Translations under genes and position numbers: made by a program
The notes under the pieces: model-generated
Databases searched by the model: none
Seen by the model: the letters and a program-made list of their open reading frames with translations, nothing else
Told to the model about the DNA's origin: nothing
Source: Buxus sempervirens
Taxonomy: Eukaryota; Streptophyta; Magnoliopsida; Buxales; Buxaceae
Direction: 5' to 3'
Assembly (NCBI GenBank): GCA_947561395.2
Contig: OX387184.1
Span: forward strand, 43,204,766 to 43,268,765
Length of the DNA stretch: 64,000 nt
Part shown: positions 5,466-63,780 of the stretch, one piece after another
How positions within the stretch are numbered: the stretch's first letter is position 1
How the letters are laid out: each line of letters opens with the position of its first letter

Positions 5466-5590
5466 TGTAAGCACCTCATTTTTGCGCTCCCATAAAAACC
5501 AGAAATGCAAACCCTGGACAGAAAGTCAAACCCTAAGGGGTGAAAAGTTGACTTTTTGATCAGGTGAAAATTGGCCACCTCGCTTTATGC

Positions 5591-6185
5591 CATTGGATAG
5601 AGAATCTCGACACGGTTCCAACGCAACTGAGTTTGCAGGAATCGGAGTCCGGATGAAGGTTCTGCGGGCGGTCAAACTTGAGCAGAGCCAAGAGTTGACT
5701 TTCTGCTAAAATCCGATCCAGAGCCCTACCCCTAGGTCATTGGATAGAGAATCTCGACACGGTTCCAACGCAACTGAGTTTGCAGGAATCGGGGTCCGGA
5801 GAAAGGTTCTGCGGGCGGTCAAACTTGAGCAGAGCCAAAAGTTGACTTTCTGATAAAATCAGATCCAGAGGCCTACCCCTAGGTCATTGGACAGAGAATC
5901 TCGACACGGTTCCAACGCAACTGAGTTTGCAGGAATCGGAGTCCGGATAAAGGTTCTGCGGGAGGTCAAACTTGAGCAGAGCCAAAAGTTGACTTTCTGT
6001 TAAAATCCGATCCAGAGGCCTACCCCTAGGTCATTGGACAGAGAATCTCGACACGGTTCCAACGCAACTGAGTTTGCAGGAATCGGAGTCCGGATAAAGG
6101 TTCTGTGGGTGGTCAAACTTGAGTAGAGCCAAAAGTTGGCTTTCTGCTAAAATCCGATCCAGAGGCCTACCCCTAGGTCATGGGA
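5591..6185 (+). repeat. 147-bp tandem repeat, four units, in the LTR of A
   Basis: The anchor CATTGGATAGAGAATC begins at 5591, 5738, 5885 and 6032, with a diverged fifth start at 6179. Each step is exactly 147 bp. Units differ by a few substitutions and no indels. Other LTR copies (for example G at 27907 and 28054) hold a single unit of the same length, so A has an amplification of an ancestral 147-bp segment. Confidence 0.85.
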
Positions 6186-6530
6186 TAGAGGGCTCCGATA
6201 TGAGTCTAACGCCACTAAGTTTGCCCAGATCGGAGCCTGGATGAAGAAAATATGAGCTGACAAAATTCCCGAGTAGCAAAATCGGCAAACTGCGCACGTG
6301 GCGAGTGGCGCAGGAAAATATCTCGGGGCTCAAATCCGTAAATATCCAAAAATTCAAAAGATCCCAGGGATCAATCTGAAAATCTTTGAAAATATCTGAA
6401 TAAAATAATATTAAATCCAAATATCCCAGGGATTATATCTTAATTTCCGGATTTTTTAGACAAACGAGCGGCCGCATTAAATGTTTTTTGATCATTTGGT
6501 CGCTCTCGCAAATGTGGCAAACGGGTATGC

Positions 6531-12122: not shown

Positions 12123-12692
12123 TTGTTTGTAATGCCCCGGATCCGAGTCACGAAATAGCACCGTAACTCATCCCCGGAGGTTAATTTAAAACAAAGGATC
12201 GCAAAATCAGAGTGAAGGAAAAACATGAATACAACAATAGCTATATAACAGAGTGCGCTAAAATAGTCCCAAACTAAAATAAAACTCACATGTCAAAGTA
12301 ACTACCCGCAAGTATCGAGCTCTCCAAGAGTATCTGAAAACAAAACGAAAGCAACGGGGTGAGATACGAATATTCCAGTGAGCAGCACATGCATGCACAA
12401 ATACATTTAGTTCGGTTCTAAAACATGCCATGATTACAAACCATATACAACGATGATAACACGTATAACCCAACAAAACTTCAACGATCCAATTTACATC
12501 CGTGAGGAAAACCATCGTATAAACCAAGCAGTAAAGACGATACCAATCATGCATATAGCCGTAAAGTCACGTATAACCAGGTAGCAACATATCGAAGAAA
12601 ACATAGTTCAACAACTCAAAAGATATAACTCGGGTCCCAACCCGTATCAACAATAAAGTCACCTTATAACCAATGCCCACACCTCCCAATGT

Positions 12693-13113
12693 ATATCCGG
12701 CCTACTCAGGGTTTCGGATATTGAAATGATAGCGTCATCCAATGCCGGCCTACTCCGGGTATCGGCATTGACAACACCATACCACTCAGGGTCATGATGC
12801 TGCTCTACACTGGCGGGAGGTACAATACCCAATAATCGGTAAACAATATTCCATGAACCATAAATACCAACAAACCAGCGAATAAAACATATCACGTCAA
12901 ACAAAATCAAATACCAACATTGGTCAATGTCATGTAGTTGCTTAGATTGGTTAATCTACATGCCAGAGTGACATCCACACCTCCATGTACACAGTTCCGG
13001 CCTACTCAGGGTATCGGACACTCTGAAATGACGGCCTACTCAGGGTATCGTCATCCAATGCCGGCCTACTCCGGGTATCGGCATCGACAACCAGGCCTAC
13101 TCAGGGTTTCTGG
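12693..13113 (-). repeat. Constant-loop hairpin series in X1
   Basis: Six 15-nt loops of type GCCTACTCAGGGTTT, each enclosed by a different inverted repeat: ATATCCG/CGGATAT (12693-12721), CAATGCCG/CGGCATTG (12740-12770), TCCG/CGGA (12996-13018), ATGACG/CGTCAT (13028-13054), CAATGCCG/CGGCATCG (13056-13086) and CCAG/CTGG (13091-13113). The single mismatch in the fifth stem is a G-U pair in the sense (minus) RNA. At about 12727-12739 a GATAGCGTC remnant looks like the ATGACG hairpin with its loop lost. Confidence 0.85.
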
Positions 13114-13267
13114 CTGCTCTACAGTGGTCGTGGCAACACTCCATGGCCATGCCATTACACCAATAAAACAAAATACATCACATTACTAAGCTTAGACTCT
13201 GGATCCAGGACAAGCTAAACCAAAACCGATAAATAACCAATTAAAACTCCGCATTCAGTACACACAT

Positions 13268-13424
13268 CACAAGTTGTTCCAACCAGAACATCAACTCACA
13301 AGTGTTCCAACCAAAACAATAATTCTTCACAAGTGTTCCAACTAGAACATCATCTCACAAGTGTTCCAACCAGAACAATAATTCTTCACAAGTGTTCCAA
13401 CCAGAACAATAATTCCTCACAAGT
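13268..13424. repeat. About 32-bp tandem repeat with GTTC...GAAC inverted repeats (X1)
   Basis: Five copies of CACAAGTGTTCCAACCAGAA followed by CAATAATTCTT, with variants. Each copy contains GTTC-CAACCA-GAAC, a short hairpin. X2 lacks this array at the corresponding place, so it is an X1-specific expansion. Confidence 0.7.
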
Positions 13425-13740
13425 AAACAAGTAAATAATCTTTGCAACATAATTCAAACTTGCCATCAAGAAAACAGGGTTTATATAAAATCTCAATCAA
13501 GTACAATATTTAACCAAAAGAAACAAAATCAAATCTCCAGTGGTATCCAGAACTTCACCTACAATTTGCCCTATATTTACCCTGGAAGCTCTTAAGAATT
13601 TCCAGAATCTATATTTCAATATTTTCCTAAGAAATTCTGCCTCTAAAATCCTAAACAAGTAATTTGTTATGTACTCAAAACCTCCTAACATAAAAAACCA
13701 CATTTGTTTGCTCAATTATGTAAGTTGGTAAGAATAATGG

Positions 13741-14015
13741 ACTATGCGCTCACCTCCTGAGGTAGGCGCGAGGTGGGCGGATAGTATATTAACTAAAATC
13801 GGGGTATGCGCCTACTTGACAGTAAGTGGGCGCGAGAAGGGCGCGAAGTGGGCGCGAGAAGGGCGCGAAGTGGGTGCGAGAAGGGCGCGGGATAGGCGCG
13901 AGAAAGGCGCCGGATAGTTGAGTGCGCGCGAGCTGAGCGCCAAGTGGGCGCGAGCTCGGCCCCAAGTCTATTTTTCCATGCGCCTACTTCCTGAAGTGGG
14001 CGCCAAATGGGCGGA
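13741..14015. repeat. GCGC-rich block of GGGCGCGAGNNGGGCGC words (X1)
   Basis: Irregular repeats of GTGGGCGCGAG, AAGGGCGCGA and GTGAGCGCC, bracketed by a TATGCGCTCACCTCCTGA word at the left and a related GCGCCTACTTCCTGA word at the right. Many adjacent words are reverse complements of each other. Equivalent blocks lie in X2 (31361-31640) and X5 (52885-53155). Confidence 0.65.
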
Positions 14016-15011
14016 TACCCACTGTGTTTTTCAAGTCTCTGTTAAATCCAAATCTTCAACTCTGGCCGAAAATTTTCAATCTGTAACCACTCCTCTGGTC
14101 TCCTAATACCCCCAGAACACATTCAAACCTATTTTGAAATTAATCTAACACACTTTTCATTTATCTCCAATTTGTTATACAGAAAATCCTTCGGACTATT
14201 TCTGCCCAGAAACCCAGTGAATAATTCATTCGACAAACATATGCATTTGAATCAAAAACTACGAATAACACAAACCAGGTTTTAAAACAGTGCCACTCAC
14301 CTTTTATGCATCCAAGTCTTGGCAATAGCAACCCAGAAAATCCCCAATCACTTCGGCCGTCTGCTTGCTCTGGTCGAACAGATGTTTTCTGAAGGAAGAA
14401 AAGCCCTTCCGAACTTCTTATTAGCAAAAACTTACTGGCAGTAAGTCTTCGCCAGCTCGACTCTCCCACAGAACCTCTCCAACTCCTTCTCTCGAAGAAC
14501 CCTAAACAAAAGCCGCAGCCACAACCTTCTCAGTAGACTATACGCGTATTCAGGGCAAAAACCCAAAACCTAATTTCTTAAAGTATTTATACCTTCCGCA
14601 AATACGCTTGCTGCCCGACGACCCTTTTAACTCTGATATGGTGTGTGCTTGCCCACCAAAACCCCTACATTAGCACCTTCCAATTTATAATAAATTTCAA
14701 ACACACTATTATCAATTTCTTTAAACCAATATTTGATGCCTGTTTAACTTAATTTAAAATCTTCATAATTTAGGCTTGGGAAATTGCGAGACTACCCTCA
14801 CTTGTTCCAACACCGAACCGCCAAAATCCAAATCCATGGAAGTCCAATAACCAAAATTTCCCATTTTAATAATTCATCCTATTTAACATTTTGTAATTAA
14901 CTCTAATTAATTTCCTTTTCTCTGTTTCTAAAGTTCTCCATTAATTAAATAAGTTTTAAAAGCATAAAATCTAAATTTTAATGTTATTAAAATTCGGGAT
15001 TTTACATTGTT

Positions 15012-27781: not shown

Positions 27782-28555
27782 TGTAAGCACCTCATTTTTG
27801 CGCTCCCAGAAGAGCTAGAAATGCAAACCCTGGACAAAAAGTCAAACCCTGAGGGGTCAAAAGTTGACTTTTTGATCAAGTGAAAATTGGCCACCTCGCT
27901 TTATATCATTGGATATAGAATCTCGACATGGTTCCGACGCAACTGAGTTTGTAGGAATCGGAGTTCGGATGAAGATTCTGCGGGTGGTCAAACTTGAGCA
28001 GAGCCGAAAGTTGACTTTCTGCTAAAACCCGATCCAGATGCCTACCCCTGTGTCATTGGATAGAGGGCTCCAATACGATTCTAACGCAACTGAGTTTGCC
28101 CAGATTGGAGTCCGGATGAAGGATCTATGAGCCGATCAAACTTGAGGAGAGCAGAAATTGACTTTCTGCTAAACCCCAGAACAGCTGCCCAAACTTGTCC
28201 CAGTGGACAGGTCATCCTGACACGATTCCAATGCAACTGAGTTTGCTCGAATCGGAGTCCCGGATAATAAGTTATGAGCAAAACAAGAAACCCTAAAAAA
28301 CTGCCCACGTGGCAAAAACAACAGAAAAAGGTGTCTGGGGGCAAATCCGTAAATAGTCAGGACAGTCAAAAATATCTAATGGCATATCTGTAATTATCTG
28401 GGGACGAATCTATGAATATCAAGTTGAAGAGAAAATAGCCCAGGGACCAATCTGCAATTTCTAAGAAAATCACCCCACATGCTTAATTCCCCACCACATC
28501 TTTCCCTCCCTCTCTCTCCTCCATAACTCATCCCCCATTCCCCACCACATCTTTT

Positions 28556-28776: not shown

Positions 28777-29884
28777 CCATGATTGTGCCCCCCATGCATG
28801 CATGCCCATCCCATTACCTCATGAATAAAGCCCTCCCAAGCCCCATACGTCCAAGGGTCTCTCATTTTTTGGTGGAGCACACTTTTGTCTCCCACCATTT
28901 TTCCTTCTCCACTCTCTTCTCTAACCTCTCACCCCAAACCCTTCAAGCATCACCTTGAGCTCTCCTACTTCTCTTCTTTTCTTCTTCTTCTCCATTTTTT
29001 ATCCAAGCATGGAGGAGGTTTGCTGCTGGTGTGGGGAAGAAGCAGCTCCAGCCACTAAGTTGCTTCAAGAAGCTCTCCACACTCCCTTATAGGGTTCCAA
29101 AACCCCAAGGTATTGTTCCTCGTGACCTTTTATACCACATATGTGAGAATGAATGTATTTTGTGATGCTTAGAAAGTCTTGTATTTTCCATGTTAAAATC
29201 AGTTTTTCCATATAGTTTTCGTGTGCTTTCCTTTCCATTTTTCGTAACATGAAGATCTCCCAAGGTGAGTGAGTATACGTATGGGTTGAAGGGAGGATGA
29301 GAGGGTAGTTTTGTAATGCCCCGGATCCGAGTCACGAAATAACACCGTAACTCATCCCCGGAGGTTAATTTAAAACACAGGATCGCAATATCAGAGTGAA
29401 GGAAAAACATGAATACAACAATAGCTATATAACAGAGTGCGCTAAAATATTCCCAAACTAAAATAAAACTCACATGTCCAAATAACTACCCGCAAGTATC
29501 GAGCTCTCCCAGAGTATCTGAAAACAAAACGAAAGCAATGGGGTGAGATACGAATATCCCAGTGAGCGGCACATGCATGCACAAATACATTTATTTCAAT
29601 TTTAAAACATGCCACGGTTATAAACCATATACAATGACGATAACACACATATTCCGAATAATCCGACTAAACTTCAATAATCCAATTCATATCAGTGCGG
29701 AAAACCATCAGGTAAATCAAGCAATGACAATCCGTTTCCAATCCCGAAGATATCGATAAAATAATGATTAACTGACAACAACATAGCAAATAACCATAAT
29801 TTCGTATCTCAAGATATAATTCCAGATATTCAAATGTCATATAACACAAAGTCTTCTCATAACCATGCCCACGCCTCCAAATGT

Positions 29885-30307
29885 ATATCCGGCCTACTCA
29901 GGGTTTCGGATATTGAAATGACTGCGTCATCCAATGCAGGCCTACTCCCCGGGTTTCTGCATTGACAACCAGGCCTACTCAGGGTTTCTGGCTGCTCTAC
30001 ACCGGCGGGAGGTACAATACTCAATAATCGGTAAACAATATTCCATGAACCATAATTACCAACAAACCAGCGAATAAAACATATCACGTCAAACAAAATC
30101 AAATACCAACATTGGTCAATGTCATGACTATTGTTTAGTTGATAAATTAAACATGCCAAGTAGACACTCCACACCTCCATGTACACAGTTCCGGCCTACT
30201 CAGGGTTTCGGAAACTCTGAAATGACGGCCTACTCAGGGTTTCGTCATCCAATGCAGGCCTACTCAGGGTTTCTGCATTGACAACCAGGCCTACTCAGGG
30301 TTTCTGG
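29885..30307 (-). repeat. Constant-loop hairpin series in X2
   Basis: Seven copies of the GCCTACTCAGGGTTT loop, each with its own stem: ATATCCG/CGGATAT (29885-29913), CAATGCAG/CTGCATTG (29932-29964, 17-nt loop), CCAG/CTGG (29969-29991), TTCCG/CGGAA (30189-30213), ATGACG/CGTCAT (30222-30248), CAATGCAG/CTGCATTG (30250-30280) and CCAG/CTGG (30285-30307). At about 29918-29930 ATGAC-TGC-GTCAT is the ATGACG hairpin without its loop. Compared with X1, the CAATGCCG/CGGCATTG stem has become CAATGCAG/CTGCATTG, a two-sided change that keeps pairing. Confidence 0.88.
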
Positions 30308-31360
30308 CTGCTCTACACCAGTCGTGGCAACACACAAGGCCATGCAATTCCAACAACCAACAAATAGCATTACATTACTAAGCTTAGACTCTGGAGCCAG
30401 GACGAGCTAAACCAGTAGTAAGTATAAAACTAGCAAATCAACCCAATGTATTTTCCATCATGTAAAACTGATATATATATATATAGATCAACATGTTCAA
30501 GTGCATACCATAGGTCACTCAGGACCAGCTCGCTCGCTCATGGAGTCCTCAAAGAAATTCTCAAATAATTTACCGGAACAGAATAAGATATGATTCTAAA
30601 CCAACCACCGATATAAAACAATATTCAAGTATAGCATTCCTGAAGTGCACCGTGCATTCAAAGGTGAACTAGCATAATAGTGTAGAGGTATTTCAGCAAA
30701 ACAATATGGTTTCAAAACTGACTTTTCAGAATAAAGCACATTATACAGAAATGATTTCAGCATCCAAACTTCGATTAAACATAATCCAGCAAAACAGCTC
30801 CTAGATTCTAAATTTCGTTTTCATAATCCAAATCAATCAAATGAATGTCACAAAACCCTGGAAACACATTTTGGATGAGTGGAATAGTCTTAGGATCCCC
30901 TATAAGGTCACCATACCAAAAAGCAATCAATTCTGAGACAAAAAGTTTCGGACCTCAAAATATTCTAAGTCTGGTTAAAAACGTTGACTTTTGGTATATA
31001 ATTTTTCTAGACAAATCTACAAGGAGTTTTGGGCTCAAATTTTGGTTGTAGTCTATTGAAGGGTAAACACATCTCCTAGAATTTTATGGGCTCCTGAATC
31101 ACTCATCTGGGTATTAAACCCAAACCGGGCATTTTGATAAAAACCGGGATTTAGGCATGAACTGGAAAGTTGACTTTTTATTGGCTGGGAATTAGACCTT
31201 GGAAGTATTTTTATTGGTTCCAAATGGGGGGTAAAACCTTATTTACATGTAAAGACTTAAGTAAATGGAGCAATAAATACACAGGACATTTACTTAAATG
31301 TCTTTCATGTAATTAAGGGGCTATTTTCAACAAATTCTGTAATTCGGCAAGTGTATTGGA

Positions 31361-31640
31361 CTATGCGCTCACCTCCTGAAGTGGGCGCGAGGTGAGCGCC
31401 GGTCGGCGGTAAGGAAATAGGTAAAAAATAGACCTACCGCTCACTCGACGCTAGGTGAGCGCGAGGTGAGCGCCAGACGGGCGTGAGGTGGGCGCGAGAT
31501 TCGTGCGAGATGAGCGCCGGGTTTTCTACTAAGCGAGAGCTGAGCGCCAGACGGGTGTGAGTTCGGCGGTGGGTGGTATTTAACGGGGCGCCTACCTCTT
31601 AGGTGAGCGCCGGTGAGCGCGAGGTGAGCGGATACCCCTG
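31361..31640. repeat. GCGC-rich block (X2)
   Basis: Words GTGGGCGCGAGGTGAGCGCC, GGTGAGCGCGAGGTGAGCG and relatives, bracketed by ATGCGCTCACCTCCTGA on the left and GTGAGCGGATACCC on the right. It is homologous in position to 13741-14015 of X1 but differs in word order and number. Confidence 0.65.
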
Positions 31641-33694
31641 TGATTTTCATTTCTCTGTTATTCCAAGATCAACATGACTGGCTGGTTGGTTTACCTCTGT
31701 AATTGTTCCACTACACTCCTAATACTCCCAGAAGACTTCCCAACCATATTTGGATTTAATCTAAACACTTTTAAATAAATGATAAAATTCAATCTCCGAA
31801 CTCTGTTCATGTCATTTTCAGAAAAACAGAAAACCAGAAAACTCATACATCATTTACGATACAAAACATGCATCAGAATAAGCTCACGAAAACCTCAAAC
31901 ACAAAACACAGTTGTAAATCAGTGCTACTCACCGTATGCGCTTAATCCCAGAACAACAGCATCTTCCACAACCGGCCGAGCACGACTCCGGCTGCACGCG
32001 AAGATGAAATGGTAGCCGCACGAATCCTCTGCTCACGAGAGAAATAACCCGCAGAAATCCGACTCCAATAACCTCCTAGTAGTTCTCGCGATCCTTGTTC
32101 TTCACAGGCATAACCCTAGTCGCCATTACCAGCCGCAATCGCCAAGTCGCCCAGTTCTCCAGATAACGAGACTAACGAAAGTATTTCCATAAGTATGATA
32201 CGAGTATTCGTTTAAACCCAAACCCTACTTTCCCCTTTTGGTATATTTCCCTCCACACGCTCCCATACGTATTGCCGAACGACAACCTTTTAAAAGCCTT
32301 GATCCTATGCATGCTTGCCCACTGAAAACCCTACATTTTCCTGCATCCACTTAAGCTTATTCTCTTTGACAACTCATGACCACAAATCTCCAGCAATAAA
32401 TAAATTTTGATTAAGCCTGTCCATAAATCCATGTGTTCATACTTTTGCATATATTTTATTTTACCTACTATTTTATATTGTTTATTGTTTTTATTTTTAT
32501 TTTTTTTTCTACTCAAAACTGGGGTTTTACAAGTTTGCATACTTTAATGGGGTTCTAAGGTTCAGTTTTAGCATGATTCTTGTCCTGTCTAAGTGAGGGA
32601 GTATGTTCCCTTTGATTCCCCTCTAATGTACCCTTGTAAACCCCCATTATCCCTTCTTGTGTTTTCCCTTTTTCTCACATTTCATTTCTCTTTCTTTTTT
32701 GAGTGCCCCCACGATGGGTATTTTCCTCTCTTAATATGCTTTAAAGTGAATGGAGAATGTATGCATGTGGGTAGATAAATCCTCATTACCATGCCCCCCT
32801 TTAGCCCCAATATGCTGCTGTTTTTATGCATCAACATGTACCCCCTTCACCCTACATTTCCCACCATTTCCAGCTCCTTAGTATGCTTTTACTTAGTGCT
32901 AATAACATGCCATTTTCTTTACCAATTTAGCTTGCTGTTTTGATGGTATTAGCATGACCCCTATCCCCCAAATACCCTGCTGGCCCAGCATGTTCCATCC
33001 CCCTTTTAGGTCGTACATGCAACCCACTAGTACCATGGGGGTAGGTTGCCATCCTTACCCCTTTCTAGGTTGTTTCCAACCCTTTTAGTATGACCAAATC
33101 CCCTCCAAATGGCTGCTGTCCTGCCATTTTTCAGCATGTCTCTTTCACTTATGATTGCATGGTATGCCCTCTTGCTTGCCCTTTGGATTGCATGTGTGAA
33201 CTCCCCCACCCTAGTAACATGCTAGATCACTTCCCGTTCATGCCACCCTCTCCACTTTGCATAAACTTGAGCCCAAATGTTTGCTGCCCCATGCAAGATG
33301 CACATGGAAACATGCATGTACATTTCATGTCATGGAGCATGCTTTAGGTATCTCTTGAGTTTGGGTTGCATCATCAATTATGCTTGCTGTTTGTGGAATC
33401 TAAGAGACCAAACAGGGACACCTTGGTCCCTATTTTATTGGCATATATGATCCAAAATGGATGAGGCAACTTCCCAAGCCTCCCCCCTCCTTTACTTGTC
33501 TTATAAACCATCCAAGGAGACCAAAGATGGGGGGATTCCCAGTCTCCAGAACCTGTGTGGGCCTTCCCGAGGGCCCACGCAACCTCAGTAGCCCACTAGG
33601 AAGCCCACAGAAGCATCCCCAAGGCCAAACCCTGAAAAAATGCATGTTTAGGGTGATTCGACAACTCAGGTCGGATCACCTGCAATCTATTCGT

Positions 33695-36880: not shown

Positions 36881-38332
36881 TCTTTGGGAACTGTGCCGAG
36901 AGGAAAAGAGCCAGAACTGAAGGAAGAGACTCCCACTGGCCCATATGTGTGCACAAGAACTTGTACCACTGCTTCACCAACATGGAGCGTAGAGCTGCCC
37001 AAGCCATCGAGAATATAGTCCTCCAAGGATGGGGAGATGAGTTTATGGACGCCCCTGCCATGGAAGGGGACTACTTGCAAGGCCTAGCTCAGATGCTCTG
37101 GGAGGAGCCACCATCCATGAAAATGATTGGAGATGCAGTGGAAGTAGACCCATTGGCTCTTGAGGGATCGCTAGATGACTTACCAGCACTAGTCGCTTTG
37201 GAATCCGTTGACGAGATCACCATAACCTTTGCTCCATCAGAGGAGCCACTCATCCCTGAAGGGATCCCGATCCACCCTGCGGCTGTGATGGAAGTTTCGT
37301 CACCTGATCCCATTGAAGAATCCAAAGAAGAAGGTCCAATCATGTATGTCTGCATGATCTGCATGATGGAAGGGCGGGACAGCTCAGGAGCGCCAACCCG
37401 CAAGCCAAGGCCGCCTACTCCACCTCCCTACATTCCGCACCCGGGAACTCATGACGCTCTGAACCGGATGTTCCGTAGCATGCCTTAGGTGCTAGGGCCA
37501 GTGCCCGAAGAAGTGTACCATATAGCTTATGGCAAATGGGCATCACCGGCTTACTTTTCTACTGTGCCCGGGATACCGACCAGAATACCCATAGCCTTTG
37601 CACCGCCCAGAGTTGACCCGACCAACGAGGTCACCATCGCCTACATGCCACCTAAGGATGAGATACCAATGGCAATTCCCCTTAGTGGATCATGGGTGAG
37701 GGTTTCATCAAACAGCGCTCCCCGATTAGAGAGAAGCTAGAACAAGCTGGCAGCAGGCGCAGAGTATGATCCCATCTACATCTCATCTGATGATAGCGCC
37801 AACATGGTGCTAGCAGGAGAACTGGAGGTGGCAGCTATCATCAATAAGGAAGACGAGGCACCATTGAAGAACTGGAGCGCCACACCTTTTGCTATCAGCA
37901 AAGCTACTATTCCAAAGGGGGTTTCCATCACCTTTGAAATTTCTGTTGTACCTACTGCTGAGATTTTCAATGAATATCTGAATGCTTCCTACTACTTGCA
38001 TCTGTTTGAAAATGAAAAAAAAACAACTTGCACATTGCAATCTTAGTGTCAATCCCAACGCACACCTGGAAGATCCGAGGCACGGGATAGATAATGAGGT
38101 CGCCATAATTAAACAAAAAGAACAAAAATAAATTGAAATGCTAGTTCAAAGGGCAATAATAAATGAAATGCATGAGCTAGTGTCCAACCCTGGAAACGGG
38201 CAAGAACTCGACAAGTCAGATTGGGGCACTAGCCCATCGTAGCAAGAAGATTCAAACATCGTCCCCTGTGAGCCTTTCGAGCATGAGGACGACGATGAAT
38301 CATGGGAGACCCCGCTGGAATTCCAACTTGCA
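36881..38332 (+). pseudogene. H spacer between protease and reverse transcriptase
   Basis: Low-conservation, acidic and proline-rich coding relic: open segments 36949-37488 (179 residues), 37489-37740 and 37804-38046 in several phases. It contains a CMICMMEGRD motif and FNEYLNASYYLH. Stops at 37486-37488 and 37738-37740 are TAG. Tat elements are known to have a long variable region here, sometimes spliced. I see no domain with an assignable function. Confidence 0.55.
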
Positions 38333-39340
38333 TTGGAAAGGCATGAAAAGGGTCCCCAGGCTAACATTGAAGAAACAGTGTCAATTGACATAGGTGAAAT
38401 AGCACAACCAAGGATCCTCCAAATTGGTAAAAAGCTGTCACCATTATTGAGAAAACAGATGTTTGATTTTCTTAAATCTTATTCTGACGTGTTTGCATGG
38501 TCATACGAGGATATGCCCAGGTTAGACATGGACTTGGTTGTGCATAAGTTACCAACAAAGTCTGAGGCCGTACCTGTGAAACAGAAGCTCAGGCGCACGA
38601 AGCCGGAATGGCCCTTGAAGATCAAGGAAGAGGTCACCAAGCAGTTGGATGCTGGATTCCTGCAAGTAACTCACTATCCGGAGTTGTTAGCCAACATCGT
38701 GCCAGTTCCCAAGAAAGACGGGAAAGTCAGGATGTGTGTTGACTATAGAGATCTGAATAGAGCAAGTCTGAAGGATGACTTCCCATTGCCACACATCGAT
38801 GTGCTAGTGGACAATACAGCAATGCATTCAATGTTCTCTTTCATGGACGGGTTCTCTGGTTACAACCAGATAAGGATGGCACCTGAGGATATGGAGAAAA
38901 CATCCTTTATCACGCATTGGGGCACTTACTGCTACCATGTGATGCCGTTCGGACTGAGGAATGTGGGTGCTACATATCAGCGTGCGATGACTGTGTTGTT
39001 CCATGACATGATGCACAAAGAGATGGAAGTGTATGTGGATGACATGATAGCAAAGTCCAAGGAAGAAGAGGACCACCTAGTGAACCTTGGAAAGATGTTT
39101 GACAGGCTCAGAGAGCACTAACTCCGACTTAACCCTAACAAGTTTGTGTTTGGAGTTACTTCAGGAAAGCTGCTCGGCTTCATAGTGGGCAAGTGGGGCA
39201 TTAAGGTCGATCTCGTCAAAGACAAGGCGATCCTGGAAATGCCTCCTCCGTCGACAGAAAAGGAAGTAAGAGGTTTCCTGAGTAGGCTGCAGTACATTAG
39301 CCGATTTATCACACAAATGACTCCTGTGTGTGTGAGCCCA
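38333..39340 (+). pseudogene. H reverse transcriptase relic
   Basis: Open from 38333 to TAA 39119-39121, and in the same phase to about 39330. Motifs in order: PVKQKLRR, NIVPVPKKDGKVRMCVDYRDLN, DDFPLPHID, FSFMDGFSGYNQIRMAPED, VMPFGLRNVGATYQRAM and the catalytic YVDDM (YVDD at 39032-39043). Then come the connection segment (LRLNPNKFVFGV) and PPPSTEKEVRGFLSRLQYISRF. The stop fits CAA to TAA. Near 39328 a TGTGTGTG run has changed length and shifts the frame. The catalytic residues are intact but the reading frame is not. Confidence 0.88.
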
Positions 39341-39850
39341 TATTCAAGCTACTAAAGAAAGATAACCCTGTGGTTTGGAATGAGGACTGTCAAGTAGCGT
39401 TTGATAAGATCAAGGCCTATCTGATGAGCCCACCGACATTGGTCCCGCCTGTCCCGGGACGACCCTTGATTATGTACCTGACAGTCTCTGAGACGGCAAT
39501 AGGATGCGTGTTAGGGCAACACGATGAGAAATGACGGAAAGAACAAGTAATCTATTACCTGAGCAAGAAATTTACCAACATCGAAGTCAGATACACTGTA
39601 CTTGAGAAGACGTGTTGTGCCTTGGCCTAGGTAGCTCAGAAGCTCCGGCACTATTTGCTAAGTCATACAGTCTTGCTGATCTCCAATCTGGATTCGTTGA
39701 AATACATCTTTGAGAAGCTGATCTCCACTGGTAGGGTTGCCCGGTGGCAAGTCCTTTTGTCTGAGTACGACATTGTCTACACGACTAGAAAGGCGATAAA
39801 AGGACAAGCTGTAGCAGATCACCTGACAGAGCATCCCCTGCTAGACTACC
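39341..39850 (+). pseudogene. H RNase H (RT-linked) relic
   Basis: CEPIFKLLKKD, FDKIKAYLMSPPTLVPP, LTVSETAIGCVLGQ, IYYLSKKF and LDSLKYIFEK follow RT as usual. Stops are TGA at 39532-39534 and TAG near 39628 (ALA-stop-VAQ, consistent with TGG to TAG). This is the ordinary Ty3/gypsy RNase H attached to RT. Confidence 0.75.
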
Positions 39851-39899
39851 AACCGCTCCTGACTCACTTCACAGAGGAAGATGTGATGTGTATCAAGGC

Positions 39900-40330
39900 C
39901 ACAGAGGACACGGAGGAAACCAAGTGGCGGATGTTCTTTGACGGGGCTGTCAATGTAAATGGAAAGCGGATCGGAGCAGTACTGATCTGCCTAGACGGCG
40001 TCCATCACCCGATAGCAACGAAACTCCTATTTGAGTGCGCTAGCAACATGGCCGAATATGAAGCATGCGTGTTAGGTTTGCGAGCAGCGATTGAGATGCC
40101 TATACAAGAGCTAAAAGTGTTTGGTGATTCAAGTATTATCATCTACCAAGTGATGAGAGATTGGAAGACCATAGATGTGAAGTTAGTGCCATACCAAGAA
40201 CTAGTCAAGGAATTAGAAGAGCAATTCGAGAGCATGACGTTCAACTACATGCCACGAGATGGGAATCGCTTTGCAGATGCACTAGCTACACTGGCATCAA
40301 TGGCCACCATCACTAATAATACTTGGGTGC
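39900..40330 (+). pseudogene. H second, archaeal-type RNase H (aRNH), catalytic residues present
   Basis: Within the open frame 39655-40908 the four acidic positions are visible: D96 (FFDGAVN), E134 (NMAEYEACVLGL), D158 (FGDSSII) and D208 (NRFADALATLAS). An additional aRNH between RNase H and integrase is a known mark of Tat/Ogre elements. The domain itself has no stop, unlike its neighbours. Confidence 0.85.
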
Positions 40331-40379
40331 AACATTTGGAGATAGAAATTCGACACTACCCTGTTTACTGCTTCAGTGT

Positions 40380-41577
40380 TGAGAAAAGCACACCCAAAGA
40401 AGAGCCTTGGTACGCAGACATTGAGAGATACATAAGAGACAGAATTTTGCCAGAAGGTGCCTCGGCCGTAGAGAAGCCAACTATTCAGAGATTGGCAAGG
40501 CAATACTTCTACAATGGGGGCAGATTGTACAAGAAGTCATACAATGACTCTCTACTGATATGTGTCAGAGAAGATGAGGTGCAGAAGTTGATTGAGGAAG
40601 TCCATGGAGGGTTGTGCGGTGCACAAATGAATGGGCATATGCTAGCAAGGAAAATTCTAAGAATGGGTTATTACTGGATGACCATGGAGGCAGACTGCTA
40701 CACTCACCTTAGGAAGTGCCAGTTGTGCCAAATTTATGTAGACAACATACATGCGCCACTGAATACGTTATATTCCATGACGTCTCCTTGGCCATTTGCC
40801 ATCTGGGGGATTTACATGATAGGTCAGGTTCATCCAAAGGCTTCGAACGGGCATAGGTTCATCTTAGTGGCGATCGATTCATTTACCAAGTGGGTAGAAG
40901 CAACATAGTCTGTCATTACGGGGTGCCAGAAACAATCATCACCGATAATGCAAAGAATCTGAATAATAAGGACATGGAAAAGCTGTGTGAAGATCTGAAG
41001 ATCAGACATCTAAACTCCAAGGCATATCGGTCCAAGATGAATGGAGCAGTAGAGGCTGCCAACAAGAATCTGAAGAGGATACTCGAGAAAATGGTAGTCA
41101 CCTATAGAGACTGGCATGAGAAGCTGCCTTATGCACTGCACGCCTACCGGACGTCGATTAGGACATTGACTGGGGCAACCCCGTTCTCCCTGGTATATGG
41201 AATGGAAGCAGTCCTCCCTGTGGAAGCACAGATTCTATCACTCAGAATTCTGAAGGAAGATGAGATTAGTGATGTCGAGTGGGAAGAATCCAGATTTGAC
41301 CAATTGCAGCTATTGGATGAGAAAAGAATCAAGGCTTTGTGTCATGGCCAACTCTATCAATAGAGAGTGGCGTGAGCCTACAACAAGAAAGTAAAGCCAC
41401 GACATTTCGAGGTGGGAGATCTAGTGTTGAAGAGAATTTTTCCCCATCAAGAAGACAACAAAGGGAAATTCAAGCCGAACTACGAAGGGCCATTCGTAGT
41501 CCACAAGGTTCTGTCCAGAGGAGCACCTATCCTGCAAGAAATGGACGGGGCAATTTTCCTGAGCCAATAAATGCAGA
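40380..41577 (+). pseudogene. H integrase relic with first catalytic D lost and an internal deletion
   Basis: The zinc-binding HHCC residues are H317 and H328, C355 and C358 of the 39655-40908 frame. The first catalytic Asp, expected in WGxD, is Tyr (WGIY, 40813-40815). After FTKWVEA (about 40905) the sequence jumps to NIVCHYGVPE, losing roughly 15-20 codons and changing phase. Asp and Glu of the second frame (40890-41363) keep the DX35E spacing (TDN, GAVEAANKN). A TAG at 41361-41363, a TGA near 41374 and a lost T near 41562 break the C-terminus. Confidence 0.82.
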
Positions 41578-46264: not shown

Positions 46265-46718
46265 ATGCTTTATCTCAATGGATATAGAATTCCGATATGG
46301 TTCCAACACAACTGAGTTTGCAGGAATCGAAGTCCAGATGAAGGTTCTGCATGCCGGTCAAACTTAAGGGGGAGCTGAAAGTTGACTTTTTGCCGAACCC
46401 CGTGCCAGGTGCTTAGCCCTATGTCATTGGATAGAGGGCTCCGACACGGTCCTAACGCAACTGAGTTTGCCCAAATTGGAGTCCGGATGAAGGAGATATG
46501 AGCTGTTGAAGTTTTCGAGCAACAAAACCGAAAATTGCACACGTGGCGACAAACGCAGCAAAATATCTCAAGGGGCAATATTTAAATATCCAAAACTTTC
46601 CAAATATCTCAGGGACTAAACCAAAATTCGCAGGGGGCAATCCGCAGATATCTAAAAGTGTCAAATCGGTCAAGTCAAGGGGCAAATCTGTAATTTTTTT
46701 ATTTTTATCCTACCAAAT

Positions 46719-51911: not shown

Positions 51912-52884
51912 CAACCGGACGCATATGTGGGCCTTCCAACGGGGCCCATCAAGCCCAAAAAATCCTAAAGCATGCAAAATAAACAAGTTAAGCGAAAATC
52001 AATTGATCGAACCGGAAGGGCCAAACCCAATGCGGCCCACCGGAAACTTGCTTTGTGGAATGATGTGTGTAAATTGCATGGTTTGGCCAACACCCTGGGT
52101 TAGGGCCTATGTAAGACCCTGATTTTTTTTTGTAAGGTTTTTCTTTTATTATTTAAATATAGTTTGTGTGCTTGTTAACTTAAGTGGATGCGGGAATATG
52201 TAGGGTTTCCAGTGGGCGAGCATGCACAGGATCAAGGACTTTAAAAGGTTGTCGATCGGCAATACGTATGGGAGCGTACGAAGGTAAATATACAAAAAGG
52301 GAAATTTAGGTCTTTGGTTTTGAGAATACTCGCAGCAATACTTTTGGCAATACTTTCGTTAGCTGAATAACTTGGGCGATTTGGCGATTCGCGGCTACTG
52401 GTGTGGCGATTAGGGTTTTGCTGAGAAGGAACGAACGAGAACTGCAAGAGCTACGACCGGATTAGTGGAGTCGGAGATACCGATTTCAGTGGGTTATTCC
52501 TCTCGCGAACAGGGGATCATTTCGGCTACCTTCGCATCCACGCGCGCAGTCGAAGTCGTGATCGGCCGTGGTTGTGGAATAAGCTGTTATTCTGGGATAA
52601 GCGTATAAGTGTGAGTAGCATTGATTTACAACTGAGTTTTTAGTTTATTCATGATAGCATTCTGATTGCATGGTTGTATTCTGAGTTTTCTGGGTTTTTT
52701 GAATATCATGAGTCCGAGCATGAGAGGGAATTACAACTTGAAATAAAATGTGTTTAGATTAAATCCAAAACTGGTTGGGAAGTATTCTGGGAATATTAGG
52801 AGTGTATTGGAACAATTACAGACCGAAAAAGATCGGCCAGAGATGGAGATCTCGAAATAACAGAGAGTAAAAAATCGCAGTGAG

Positions 52885-53155
52885 TATCCGCCGACTTGGC
52901 GCTCACTTGCGCTCACTTAGGAAGTAGGCGCCCGTTAAAATCACACTATCCGCCGAGCTGGCGCCCACTTGGCGCTCAGCTTGCGCTCACTTAAAAGTAT
53001 GCGTGAATCTCGCGCGAAGGCGGCACCCATCTCGCGCCTATTCCCCGCCCATCTCGCGCTCACTTAGTATCAAGTGAGCGCATAGTCTAAAGTTTACCTG
53101 ATTCCTATCCGCCGACTAGCGCTCACCTGGCGCTCACTTCAGGAAATGAGCGCAT
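52885..53155. repeat. GCGC-rich block (X5)
   Basis: Words TTGGCGCTCACTTGCGCTCA, GGCGCCCACTTGGCGCTCAG and CATCTCGCGCCTATTCC, the reverse-complement type of the X1 and X2 blocks, as expected for the opposite orientation. Word order differs from both. Confidence 0.6.
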
Positions 53156-53770
53156 ACCAAATTATACTTGCCGAATTTGATTCGTGACTGAACCAAGGGG
53201 ATTTTGATGACTTGAGGTTTATACCACTTAACCAATCACTTGTTTGGGAACCTTGGAACCTGCATTACCTATTCAATTACTAGAGGAAAATCTAGTGTCA
53301 AATTCTTAAAGACTTCTAAGGTTGAGTTTAGGTTATTTGTATGTGTTGTGCTGGATACCAAAACAATGGGAGTTCCTAATTAGTTTTCCCTTAAATTTAT
53401 ACACTGTTTTGATTGAGAAATTATTAACTTCTGGTTTCACTTGTTTGGAAAATTCTGAATGTATTGTAAGGTTTTTCTTGGTATGAATAACTGTGTTTTG
53501 TATTCAAATGGCATGTGTTGCGGAAATGAGAAAATACTGAAAGTATTTGAGATACTGTTTGGTCCAGAGGGACAGGTGATGAACTGTGATGAGTTATACA
53601 TGATGTGGAATGAATGGTTTTATTTTGATGTTGAAATTGAGATTATACGATGATTTACTGTTTTGGTTTAGCTTGTCCTGGATCCAGATGCTTAAGCTTA
53701 GTAATGTAATGTTATTGTTGGTTGTTGAAATTGCATGGCCTTGTGTGTTGCCACGACCGGTGTAGAGCAG

Positions 53771-53891
53771 CCAAAAACCTTGAGTAGGCCTGGTTGTCAA
53801 TGCAGAAACCCAGGGAGTAGGCTTGCATTGGATGACGAAACCCTGAGTAGGCCGTCATTTCAGAGTTTCTGAAACCCTGAGTAGGCCGGAA
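53771..53891 (+). repeat. Constant-loop hairpin series in X5
   Basis: The loop is the complement, AAACCCTGAGTAGGC. Stems: CCA/TGG (53771-53793, decayed), CAATGCA/TGCATTG (53798-53830), ATGACG/CGTCAT (53832-53858) and TTCTG/CGGAA (53867-53891). In the last, C has become T, which still pairs as U-G in the sense RNA of this copy. Stem order mirrors X2. Confidence 0.85.
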
Positions 53892-55192
53892 CTGTGTACA
53901 TGGAGGTGTGGAGTGTCTACTTGGCATGTTTAATTTATCAACTAAACAATAGTCATGACATTGACCAATCGATGTGTTGCCGTACTTAACTGAGATGTGA
54001 TTTGACTGATGAAATTGGTTTTGGTCTGAACTTGAAATTGATGTTAATTGTTTAATCATACGGAATGTTTATCGATGCATAGTTTTGAACTGTGGTTAAC
54101 TATTTCTGCATGCATGTGCTACTCGCTGAGATATTCGTATCTCACTCTGTTGTTTTTGTTTTGTGTTCAGATACTCGTGGTGAGGCGACTATTGGGGTAG
54201 ATCCGTCTGAGGCTTATAGGGAGGAAGACTACTATTATCTTGTTTCGAATTTGAGTAATTTGAATGTTGAGGTGTATTAAAGTCTATTGGGGTTGAACCA
54301 TATGATTTCTAGTTAAGTTCTAAATGTTACATTCTTGGATTAATGAAATTGTGCACTCTGACAGGTTATAGTTAGATGATTATCCAGCAATCATAAACCA
54401 TTAACGATCCTTACCTAACCTCCGTGAGACGTGTTATATCTTTATTGAACAACACGGATCCGGGGCGTTACAGCCTATCGGGCCCGCCAAAGCCCATTAA
54501 CTAAACCAAAGAAGGGTGCAAACCCTAAACCTCAAGGAACTTAGGCTTTCAAGCCCAAATTTGGACCACGGGCCCCAAGCCCAGTGCCCAACTCACCTTG
54601 GAAAAGATAAACAAGATAATCCAAAGCACTTTTGGCAACCATCATGAGGGCCCACCCAGGGGCCTGCAAACCAATACAGACCCACCTTTCGCATGAAAAT
54701 CACTTAAACCACAACTTGAACAGATAATAAAATCAATTCATTTAACTCAAGCCCAAAGGGCCTCCTAGAACTAGGCAGAGGCCCACCAAGGGTACATGGG
54801 CTTGACTAAAGCCTACCAGGGACACCATGGGCCTCCCTACAGGGCCCACCCTATCAGACTCAGATCATTTAAATAAACAAGATGAAAGAAATTAAAGGGA
54901 CTCACACCACTTAGGTGGTCCCGCCAAACTCAACCAAATGGCATGCTAGATTAGGAATCAGGTGAGAACCAAAGTGAGTTGACTCAAACCAGGAGAACCC
55001 GCGGGACCCGTCATCCGACAGGGTGGTCTGGGGTGTCTACGGACTTCCCTAGACTACAACCGAGACCCTACTTAGAATCTCAAAGCTGCAGACCAAGCCC
55101 AATTGACAAGATTAGGCACCCAGGTGTCCGCCTGTACCCCATCAGGTGGTGGCGACTCCGAATTTCCCCGTGCGGCGTTTCTGACGTGCACA

Positions 55193-62022: not shown

Positions 62023-62180
62023 CTTTCTCTCTTTTGTGGGACCTGTTGGAAGCCCTAGAATATTCCAACAATTCAAAAAAAAAAAAGAAGCAAATAAAAA
62101 AAAAAATCCAAACTCGTGTTCACCCAGCTTGCACATAGGCATTCCTAGACATGTGAATGAGATTAAATTGGCACTGATAT

Positions 62181-62197
62181 TTTCTTTATTTATCCAG
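62181..62197 (+). promoter_or_regulatory. Candidate 3' splice site upstream of Z gag
   Basis: TTTCTTTATTTATCCAG ends at 62197, 53 bases before the gag ATG. A pyrimidine tract plus CAG is the plant acceptor consensus. It would pair with the donor at 58714/58715. Confidence 0.5.
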
Positions 62198-62250
62198 GTA
62201 CTAATACACTTGCAATCATAGCTCTTGTAACCAGATCAAGAGTTCGAGCC

Positions 62251-63780
62251 ATGAATCCCATTGAAGATGAAGTTGATGCTCTTCATCCAGATGTTGTTCT
62301 ACTCCAAGAACAAGTGGCAAGACTAGCCCGAATGCTAGAGAACATACTGTCAGTACAGGCCCAACAAGTGCAGGCCCAACAAATGCAAGCCCAGAACCAG
62401 GCATCCACATCCAACCCTGCACCTCCACCCCCAGTCAACATTCCACCTCCAGTGCAACCAACTCCTGAACCCGTCTATGAACACACCCCTGAACCTATAC
62501 TGACCAGGGATGAGACAGCTGAGTCAAACAAGGCTAAGGAAAAGGAAAGGATAAGGGAAGAGGTTGAAAGAAAGTTCATGCATAAGCTAGAAATGATTCA
62601 AGATGAACTAAGGGAAGTCAAAGGGGTAAACAACTTTGGAGGCACCAATTTTGAAGACCTGTGCCTATACCCCAATGTTAACCTGCCGGTTAAGTTTAAG
62701 TGCCTAGACTTGGACAAGTATGATGGCACTGGTTGCCCCATGAGCCACCTAAAGTTGTATTGCGGTGCCCTATGTCAGTTCGGGCAGGATGAGGGTATCT
62801 TGATCCAACTTTTCCAAAGGAGCCTGACTGGAACCGCATTAAGATGGTTCGCCACTCTGGACCATGGAAAGATCAAAAGATGGAAGGACCTAGCCGATGC
62901 CTTCCTGGCTCAATACCGGTTCAATTCAGAGATCATGCCAGATAGGTACGACGTCATGAGAATGAGCAAAGGAAGGGAAGAGACTGTAAGGCAATATGCC
63001 AAGAGGTGGAGGGAGACGGCCTCCCAGGTCAGGCCACCCATGCTAGAACAGGAAATGATTTCTACTTTCATAAGCACTTTGGGTCAATCATTCTATAGCC
63101 ACTTGGTGGGTCAGACCACCACTAATTTTGCAGCTTTGGTTCGAGTGGCCGACCGAATTGAGGACGGAATAAGATCAGGTAAAATAATTGACCACTCTGC
63201 CATGGTTAGCCAGCAGAACCCCAACCTAAAGAAAGGAGGCGGGATAAAAAAGAATGGGAACAAGAAGGAGGGTGAGGTGAACATGGTGCAGCCACCATCT
63301 GGCCCTAACAAGCCCATACAAATCAACATACCTGCCCATTTTCCTACCCCACCGGCTTCATCATCCCAAGTCCCCATGAGGGTTAATGTTCCAGCAGCAC
63401 CTTCAGACCAAAAAAGGGTTTTTACCAAAGAGGAAAAGGATGCCTATTTTGCAGCAAGGAGAAATAGGGTTTTCACCCCTATTCCAATGACTCCCTCTCA
63501 ATTGCTGCCCACTTTATTGCAAGGAGGGTATATCACCTTAAGAGAACCTAATCCGAATGCATCTAAGGGGAGAAATTTTGACCCCTCCACCACTTGTGAT
63601 TACCATATGGGTGCACCTGGGCACCCTACCGACAAGTGCTGGCCTTTGAAACATCCATTCAGGATTTACTGGACCAGAATACCCTTTCTTTCAATACAGG
63701 GGCTCCCAATCCTCCAAGAACCGATATTGGACAAAACCCACTGCCTCAGCATCACGGGGCAGGCCCATCTAATGTCATAG
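62251..63780 (+). CDS. gag: Gag polyprotein of Z, intact through the knuckle, then frameshifted
   Basis: The start is ATG 62251. Residues 1-35 are a short coiled coil, 36-48 a QAQQ repeat, 50-80 proline-rich and 90-125 charged helix. Residues 150-310 are the retrotransposon gag capsid-like domain: KYDGTGCPMSHLKLYCGAL, LIQLFQRSLTGTALRWF, WKDLADAFLAQYRFN, RQYAKRWRETASQV and FISTLGQSFYSHLVGQ. Residues 320-400 are basic and proline-rich. A CHHC knuckle (C449, H452, H458, C463) would bind RNA. At about residue 467 (near 63652) a one-base indel shifts the frame, so the last 40 residues before the stop at 63780 are spurious. It forms the virus-like particle of the element. Confidence 0.88.
   Translation: MNPIEDEVDALHPDVVLLQEQVARLARMLENILSVQAQQVQAQQMQAQNQASTSNPAPPPPVNIPPPVQPTPEPVYEHTPEPILTRDETAESNKAKEKERIREEVERKFMHKLEMIQDELREVKGVNNFGGTNFEDLCLYPNVNLPVKFKCLDLDKYDGTGCPMSHLKLYCGALCQFGQDEGILIQLFQRSLTGTALRWFATLDHGKIKRWKDLADAFLAQYRFNSEIMPDRYDVMRMSKGREETVRQYAKRWRETASQVRPPMLEQEMISTFISTLGQSFYSHLVGQTTTNFAALVRVADRIEDGIRSGKIIDHSAMVSQQNPNLKKGGGIKKNGNKKEGEVNMVQPPSGPNKPIQINIPAHFPTPPASSSQVPMRVNVPAAPSDQKRVFTKEEKDAYFAARRNRVFTPIPMTPSQLLPTLLQGGYITLREPNPNASKGRNFDPSTTCDYHMGAPGHPTDKCWPLKHPFRIYWTRIPFLSIQGLPILQEPILDKTHCLSITGQAHLMS

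Follow-up and report, generated by a model that had tools for sequence, protein, structure and literature searches.

Among plant LTR retrotransposons, EVADE and Ogre carry internal introns. In these elements, as in BARE1, where the splice falls close to the gag end, RNA for translation is set apart from RNA for replication by splicing (PMC12786077, PMC3735527), and the export of plant LTR-retrotransposon RNA lacks direct study according to the accessible sections of a 2025 review (PMC12786077). Retroviral constitutive transport elements (CTE) and the RTE and MTE of mouse IAP and MusD are structured cis-acting RNAs serving the unspliced genomic RNA (PMC3856414, PMC12786077), and retroviral packaging and dimerisation leaders, together with the BARE signals for these two steps, are built of hairpins within the leader of the RNA that is replicated (PMC3735527). 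Sireviruses (Ty1/copia) carry palindromes that resemble the array described here in being multi-copy inverted repeats in plant LTRs, conserved amid diverged LTR sequence, with a CGG/CCG-type core; in the available part of that description, each element keeps its symmetric arms constant, with a short spacer or none, and the repeats lie upstream of the TATA box (PMC2829016).

The window, the whole 64,000-nucleotide stretch of Buxus sempervirens DNA analyzed here (C4:43204766-43268765 of the 676 Mb host assembly, G000), holds three LTRs, X1, X2, and X5, in which one loop recurs. The sense loop, AAACCCTGAGTAGGC, is 15 nt long and has 11,578 exact copies in 676,531,615 bases (5,801 forward, 5,777 reverse), with the reversed control pattern giving 0. 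Scanned with up to 3 mismatches, the window shows the loop on the + strand at 12 places in X1 (12700-13109) and X2 (29892-30303) and on the - strand at 3 places in X5 (53775-53886), with one further 3-mismatch match at 27844, outside all arrays. The first-pass annotation called the loop nearly invariant at 15 nt; its length is not strictly so, as hairpin P3 often has 17 nt, carrying CCCCGGG or CCCTGGG in the antisense reading, and T/G and A/T variants occur. The consensus in sense RNA is AAACCC(U/G/GGG)GAGUAGGC. In the carrier L032/L033, where gag-pol lies on the + strand, the coding-strand reading of the array is AAACCC...GAGTAGGC, so GCCTACTCAGGGTTT is antisense. Within single arrays (L021, L027, L048, and window 12980-13121), a change from AAACCC to ATACCC is common to P1, P2, and P3 while P4 stays AAACCC, as if the loops co-evolve. 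Elsewhere in the assembly, loop triplets on contig C1 (8882524, 8943551, and 9004579) lie ~61.03 kb apart with identical inner spacing, a periodicity that suggests a large tandem duplication. A search of viral contigs for loop pairs returned 0.

The carriers are Ty3/gypsy LTR retrotransposons by both domain set and LTR structure. In the one element examined, a gypsy-type gag-pol on the + strand lies between two LTRs (L032 and L033) that are 98.4% identical over 2,505 aligned bases, and its pieces match the Pfam families Retrotrans_gag, zf-CCHC, RVP_2, RVT_1, RT_RNaseH, and Integrase_H2C2. A chromodomain scan of these pieces up to L033:2503 gave an SH3_Tf2-1 match and no chromodomain match; the clade is putatively chromovirus (Del/Tekay-like). 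A protein search listed 15 proteins, 11 bearing angiosperm names, two bacterial labels (one flagged as contamination), and two no name, the best-scoring being 32% identical and the highest identity 36%; from this a plant host is deduced. The LTR ends are TGTAARACCC...TTACA, and a tRNA-type primer site, TGGTATCA, is present 3' of two LTRs (L032, L034). For comparison across the family, 36 candidate LTR intervals were reduced to 27 by dropping alternative starts and L013, L015, and L048, with L022 trimmed. An exact 5-bp target duplication flanks 22 of the 27 (a count that does not include the trimmed L022), four of five bases match in L019, L020, and L041, and the duplication is out of register in L026.

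X2 is a solo LTR on the - strand (29312..32531, starting at 32531 and ending at 29312; TGTAAAACCC...GCATTACA) with the target-site duplication AAACT on both sides. Its main hairpin array, located by loop scan and covariance model at 30174..30315 (-), runs P4-P3-P2-P1 in sense order and scores 184.9 bits with a covariance model whose input included the identical array of L036. P4 (CAGCCAG-loop-CTGGTTG) occupies 30282..30310, P3 (AATGCAG-loop-CTGCATT, 8 bp including the flanking C-G) 30251..30279, P2 (GATGACG-loop-CGTCATT) 30221..30249, and P1 (a TTCCG/CGGAA core, taken together with AGT/ACT and a 1-nt bulge) 30187..30215, all on the - strand. A second, partial module (29870..30005, -; 118.8 bits) comprises copies of P4 (29966-29994) and of P3 with a 17-nt loop (29932-29964), a loop-less P2, ATGACTGCGTCAT (29918-29930), and an additional hairpin, P0, ATATCCG/CGGATAT (29885-29913). 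X1, also a solo LTR (12128..15006, -; target-site duplication AACAA), contains a main P4-P1 array at 12980..13121 (-), whose loops are partly ATACCC, and a second, partial module at 12682..12807 (-; 90.7 bits). The solo LTR X5 (52110..54472, +; target-site duplication GCCTA) has its sense on the window + strand and a main P4-P1 array at 53763..53906 (+). The five stems on which the first-pass annotation had seen one loop, ATATCCG, CAATGCMG, CCAG, TTCCG, and ATGACG, are all located in the window. Elsewhere in the window, a satellite-like 147-base tandem repeat with scattered relatives occupies 5466-6284, 27782-28159, and 46372-46530, and remnants of other retroelements at 38243-40905 (+) and 62167-63777 (+) show matches to RT, to RNase H, and, weakly, to the integrase zinc finger, along with a gag reading frame.

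Across the family, the sense stems are P4 CAGCCAG/CTGGTTG, P3 CAATGCMG/CKGCATTG, P2 GGATGACG/CGTCATTT, and P1 AGT-bulge-TCCG/CGGAACT, the last best read with its 1-nt bulge, and almost no spacer separates the hairpins. Counting sense G·U pairs makes P4 and P2 longer than first annotated. Four hairpins in fixed order are present in 23 of the 27 aligned LTRs; three hairpins remain in L009, L016, and L028, and L025 has a tandem-repeat form. From 44 matched stretches, three loop-less ones and one duplicate (the X2 main array, identical to L036) were dropped to give 40 arrays; 36 of these were aligned, leaving out the four with three hairpins, and throughout the 36 the hairpins occupy orthologous places in identical order. 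The four shorter arrays (L009, L013, L016, and L028) have chimeric arms at the join, one hairpin combining the arms of two stems, as if recombination between loops had deleted part of the array; such deletions continue to occur.

Some LTRs carry the second, partial module with P0. Its P2 lacks the loop in 7 of the 9 modules seen and retains it in L020 and L058; the loop-less ATGACTGCGTCAT of X2 is the P2 place of this module. The same loop also occurs in a tandem-repeat context, in the 64- and 117/118-nt repeats of L065 and L025, on the stems CATTCCG/CGGAATT, CGTTCCG/TGGAACG, and TGTTTCG/CGAAACG. These repeats (L025:3745-4320 and L065) belong to a more distant LTR and lie beside GGTC-CTGAGT-GACC mini-hairpins, which we dropped as a candidate structure: at least four flanking pairs accompany only 6 of 110 CTGAGT, 4 of 30 CGGAGT, and 13 of 67 TTGAGT sites in the 27 LTRs. 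P0, P1, P2, and the tandem-repeat hairpins all have an inner CG/CG, as do P3 in its CCG form and one variant of P4 (CAATCCG/CGGGTTG, in L014). With this inner core in most stems, we read the hairpins as duplicates of one that diverged under a pairing constraint, and duplication followed by compensatory drift explains how one loop comes to sit on many stems.

Stem pairing was assessed on loci from a single genome, the unselected ones all coming from contig C1 and the window; L009-L048 were picked from the first matches listed on C1, and the examined loci make up a minor fraction of all 11,578 copies. The 60 distinct hairpins among 160, a set that includes two L065 units, pair far more often than their shuffled arms, in 84.8% of cells against 59.9% shuffled and 19.0-50.7% slid. 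Contrary to the first-pass annotation, the arms are not always complementary; P4 of X5 (53768-53796), for instance, has A·C at its loop-closing pair. Covariation in this set is 0.618 against 0.214 shuffled, a value reached by 0 of 500 shuffles, with 87 double-change cells against 34.0; double changes at all 7 stem pairs, against 6.5 shuffled, are not telling alone. The 36 orthologous arrays, drawn from the unselected set only, show 97.4% paired cells (95.6% shuffled, 16.1-41.4% slid). None of 500 shuffles attains their 16 double-change cells (5.5 shuffled), but 40 of the 500 attain the 4 doubly changed pairs (2.2 shuffled) and 60 the 22 further pair types (20.3 shuffled).

Compensatory double changes are present in P0-P4 and in the separate tandem-repeat context, and the one noted earlier between X1 and X2, CAATGCCG/CGGCATTG versus CAATGCAG/CTGCATTG, is real. 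Doubly changed cells remain paired in 46 of 49 cases, corresponding to 11 of 14 types, in a sample partly picked by stem pattern; L025/L065 hairpins were entered under P1, and L049-L068 were selected for stem changes, so the count is not unbiased. Without L049-L068, 5 of 7 types remain paired. These 20 loci come from the 31 exact loops genome-wide with G/T at -3 plus A/C at +3, all of which are T..A; 20 of the 31 have all three inner pairs Watson-Crick, and since transition bias alone favors T..A, the uniform outcome supports compensation without proving it. On a tree built from flanking sequence of the unselected set, internal-branch stem changes keep pairing in 9 of 10 cases and tip changes in 37 of 63 (Fisher one-sided p 0.054), with events that are few and not fully independent and ancestral states that are parsimony guesses. 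Pairing is broken in the other 26 of 63 tip changes, as broken stems in many copies are expected of dead copies.

The pairing shows a moderate bias toward the sense strand. Four sense G·U pairs are nearly fixed, at P4 bp5 (51 of 54), P4 bp8 (52 of 54), P2 bp7 (55 of 56), and P2 bp8 (52 of 56), again with L025/L065 hairpins entered under P1, which favors sense RNA and argues against a DNA cruciform and against copying from arm to arm. On the tree, Watson-Crick pairs turned into sense G·U in 38 steps and into A·C in 22 (p 0.026), events that are again not fully independent, and both tree results lend thin support. Two single changes in the window, reported earlier as G·U in the sense RNA only, are G·U in the coding strand, that reading AAACCC...GAGTAGGC (X1 13057-13085 and X5 53865-53893). 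The designated stem is more stable in sense for P4 (35 of 36 arrays) and P2 (31 of 36) but in only 13 of 36 for P3 and 11 of 36 for P1; designated P4 reaches -7.4 kcal/mol in sense versus -2.9 in antisense, with 7-8 versus 4 bp next to the loop, and free-folded antisense P1-P3 hairpins are more stable on average. Minimum free energy was set aside as evidence, the X2 array having unremarkable z values of -1.30 (sense) and -1.92 (antisense) and the L025 stretch -0.61. In the X2 sense fold, the centroid shows the four hairpins and the minimum-energy fold differs. RNAalifold prefers another consensus fold with 98.1% of cells paired, but it explains 2 double-change pairs versus 4. We prefer the four hairpins, as the double changes of P4 and P1 pair columns only there and the hairpin recurs in P0 and the L025/L065 repeats, which lack the partners that the RNAalifold fold needs.

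Few parts of the LTR are conserved as well as the array block. Median pairwise identity of the 27 LTRs is 0.61 (range 0.45-0.97), and conservation, taken in steps of 25 bases, goes from 0.02-0.06 at positions 26-150 (U3) through 0.13-0.74 in most of the body to 0.74-0.92 at 1676-1950, the array being at about 1780-1915; the final 15 bases reach 0.94. In many LTRs of the 27, the conserved block 5' of the array, at about 1685-1730 in L047 numbering, contains two decamers, CTGGATCCAG and CTAAGCTTAG, each complementary to itself; the first is altered in X2 (near window 30390). Adjoining the hairpins, these decamers form a candidate dimerisation site.

Conserved splice-like sites enclose the array. 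In one alignment, a donor-like GTGAGTRGCAY (step value 0.69), which comes after diverged sequence, has GT in 25 and GC in 2 of 27 LTRs, and an acceptor-like stretch, composed of a TGAGATA-TTCG-TATCTCA hairpin, a pyrimidine-rich tract, and CAG, has AG in 25 and AA in 2, with conservation of 0.71-0.89, level with the array. In the window, the donor-like sites are CGCATACG|GTGAGTAGCAC in X2 (31922..31940, -; putative intron base 1 at 31932) and GTATAAGT|GTGAGTAGCAT in X5 (52603..52621, +), the former assigned by family pattern. The acceptor-like site of X2, assigned likewise, is TGGGATA-TTCG-TATCTCA with pyrimidine-rich tract and CAG (29518..29561, -; last putative intron base 29518); that of X5 has the TGAGATA-TTCG-TATCTCA form with the same two features (54127..54170, +). 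The predicted intron, GTGAGTAGCAY...TTTTCAG, measures 1,384-2,318 bases and contains the array; in base composition it is not clearly distinct from its flanks. Both sites being conserved, the LTR has a putative intron, and the array, lying between them, may be kept only in unspliced RNA. Separately, A-to-G changes in the 5' arm of the acceptor-side hairpin (TGGGATA) retain sense G·U (X5 54127-54170 and aligned LTRs), and the loop segment GAGUAG is complementary, by eye and over a short stretch, to a conserved CURCUY before that hairpin.

Loop insertion with inverted duplication of short target words, one of two mechanisms first suggested for the locus, would account for the loop-less P2 of the second module (29918-29930), which resembles an empty site; but L020 and L058 have the loop at that place, and recombination that removes or adds a loop is explanation enough. 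The orthologous hairpins in fixed order in 36 arrays, most with common inner pairs, speak against the mechanism, and among the examined loci no intact loop was seen at a fresh target outside P0-P4 and the tandem-repeat context (12 of 197 loop matches are unclassified, being weak matches, offset loops, or a truncated array). We regard such insertion as highly improbable. Correction of quasi-palindromes is an established mutational process, and a reverse transcriptase or DNA polymerase that switches template within the strand could correct one arm from the other with no function involved; the frequency of pairing-preserving double changes (46 of 49 cells) is in its favor. Such switching should nevertheless erase lasting G·U pairs, yet four of them are close to fixation in families that have diverged, and it leaves the constancy of the 15-nt loop across families unexplained, making it a quite unlikely source of the pattern.

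The array might instead work as DNA, its inverted arms serving dimeric binding at transcription-factor or chromatin sites as in Sirevirus LTRs. Palindromic LTR repeat arrays have been described as regulatory (in the available text of PMC2829016 and PMC10760457), and CCG/CGG cores are present in the stems of most hairpin classes. Here, however, the loop is constant and the arms are not, a DNA cruciform would leave the conserved sense G·T mismatched, and the array lies downstream of the donor-like site, at ~1.8 kb from the LTR start (L047 numbering); a DNA-level role seems unlikely. A structure acting in the antisense transcript, as a small-RNA source or antisense regulator, would accord with loops that can form an inner helix, with the better average free folding of antisense P1-P3, and with the excess of small RNAs mapped to maize Sirevirus palindrome clusters (PMC10760457, in its available part). 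The short, weak antisense P4 (4 bp versus 7-8, -2.9 versus -7.4 kcal/mol) and the nearly fixed non-Watson-Crick pairs, which are sense G·U, leave us little confidence in it.

Where a loop stays constant while its stems covary, a protein usually reads the RNA hairpin through that loop. Our preferred reading, which we judge evenly balanced between right and wrong, is that the array is a conserved cis-acting sense-RNA element of a chromovirus-type Ty3/gypsy LTR family: four hairpins, intronic and protein-bound, acting in packaging or export. Its sense transcript would fold into four consecutive hairpins presenting one recognition loop, with stems held by pairing, not by sequence, the hairpins having probably arisen by tandem duplication of one, as the common inner CG/CG suggests, and their stems having then drifted by compensatory change. 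The array would lie inside an intron of the LTR leader (~1.4-2.3 kb) and hence occur only in unspliced genomic RNA, where the four loop copies suggest cooperative binding by one protein, perhaps a CCHC zinc-knuckle Gag or a host factor; the Gag piece has a CCHC knuckle and is thus one candidate partner. The bound protein would mark the unspliced RNA for packaging or nuclear export. Selection on RNA structure, the other mechanism suggested at first, gains support from the compensatory double changes, the sense-only G·U pairs, the conservation peak, and the internal-branch excess (9/10 versus 37/63 at tips). Loop conservation, stem complementarity with compensation, the moderate sense bias, and the place between splice-like sites are supported; transcription, splicing, binding, and function of the array we infer.

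Rfam 15 gave 0 matches in the window at the curated threshold, self-cleaving ribozymes included, and three sub-threshold matches (E 1.6-2) within 29000-31000, none on the array. The 11-mer loop core, searched in the literature in both orientations, matched texts that, judged by title and opening of the abstract, are on other topics, mostly animal cell biology; we take them to be primer matches. Searches on chromovirus, LTR, stem-loop, packaging, intron, and splicing, mostly within literature open without subscription, retrieved nothing that by title or opening of the abstract describes such an array, and one on introns within LTRs found nothing beyond the review. Nor is such an array described in the accessible parts of PMC12786077, PMC3735527, PMC3856414, PMC2829016, PMC10760457, and PMC3601003. 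The opening claim that no described element is like this one is nearly right, needing qualification by the related Sirevirus LTR arrays, in which constant and variable parts are swapped (PMC2829016, in part). Identity with the Sirevirus LTR motif is rejected, as the arms vary, the loop is constant, and the domain set is gypsy, not Ty1/copia.

Unlike the Sirevirus palindromes, the array keeps a 15-17 nt loop constant while its arms vary and covary, and it sits in a Ty3/gypsy host, far downstream, between splice-like sites. It resembles the transport elements in being putatively intronic, a likeness from sequence position only. To our knowledge, no sequence is common to the array and the CTE, RTE, or MTE. 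The putative intron lies wholly within the LTR, unlike BARE1 splicing near the gag end; if it is real, the array marks unspliced RNA, like retroviral packaging and transport elements (PMC3856414, in its accessible part). As in packaging leaders, the hairpins adjoin palindromes that might pair two RNAs, and the Gag has a zinc knuckle; four repeats of one large loop are in no packaging signal described in the available text of PMC3735527, and a packaging role for the array is putative. That the array founds a new class of RNA element in plant retrotransposons, with same-loop hairpins lined up as a multivalent row inside an LTR intron and so marking only unspliced genomic RNA, is a tentative and rather doubtful extension. 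If true, it would be a plant counterpart of retroviral packaging and transport elements, whose stems drift while a protein partner freezes the loop, and it would show that LTR non-coding sequence can hold a structured RNA domain under long-term selection of a kind that family-level annotation misses. The means by which plant LTR retrotransposons distinguish genomic RNA from mRNA and export their unspliced RNA are a largely open field, with direct export studies lacking according to the accessible part of the review (PMC12786077), and a same-loop array with thousands of loop copies between splice-like sites offers a concrete, cheap test of that question.
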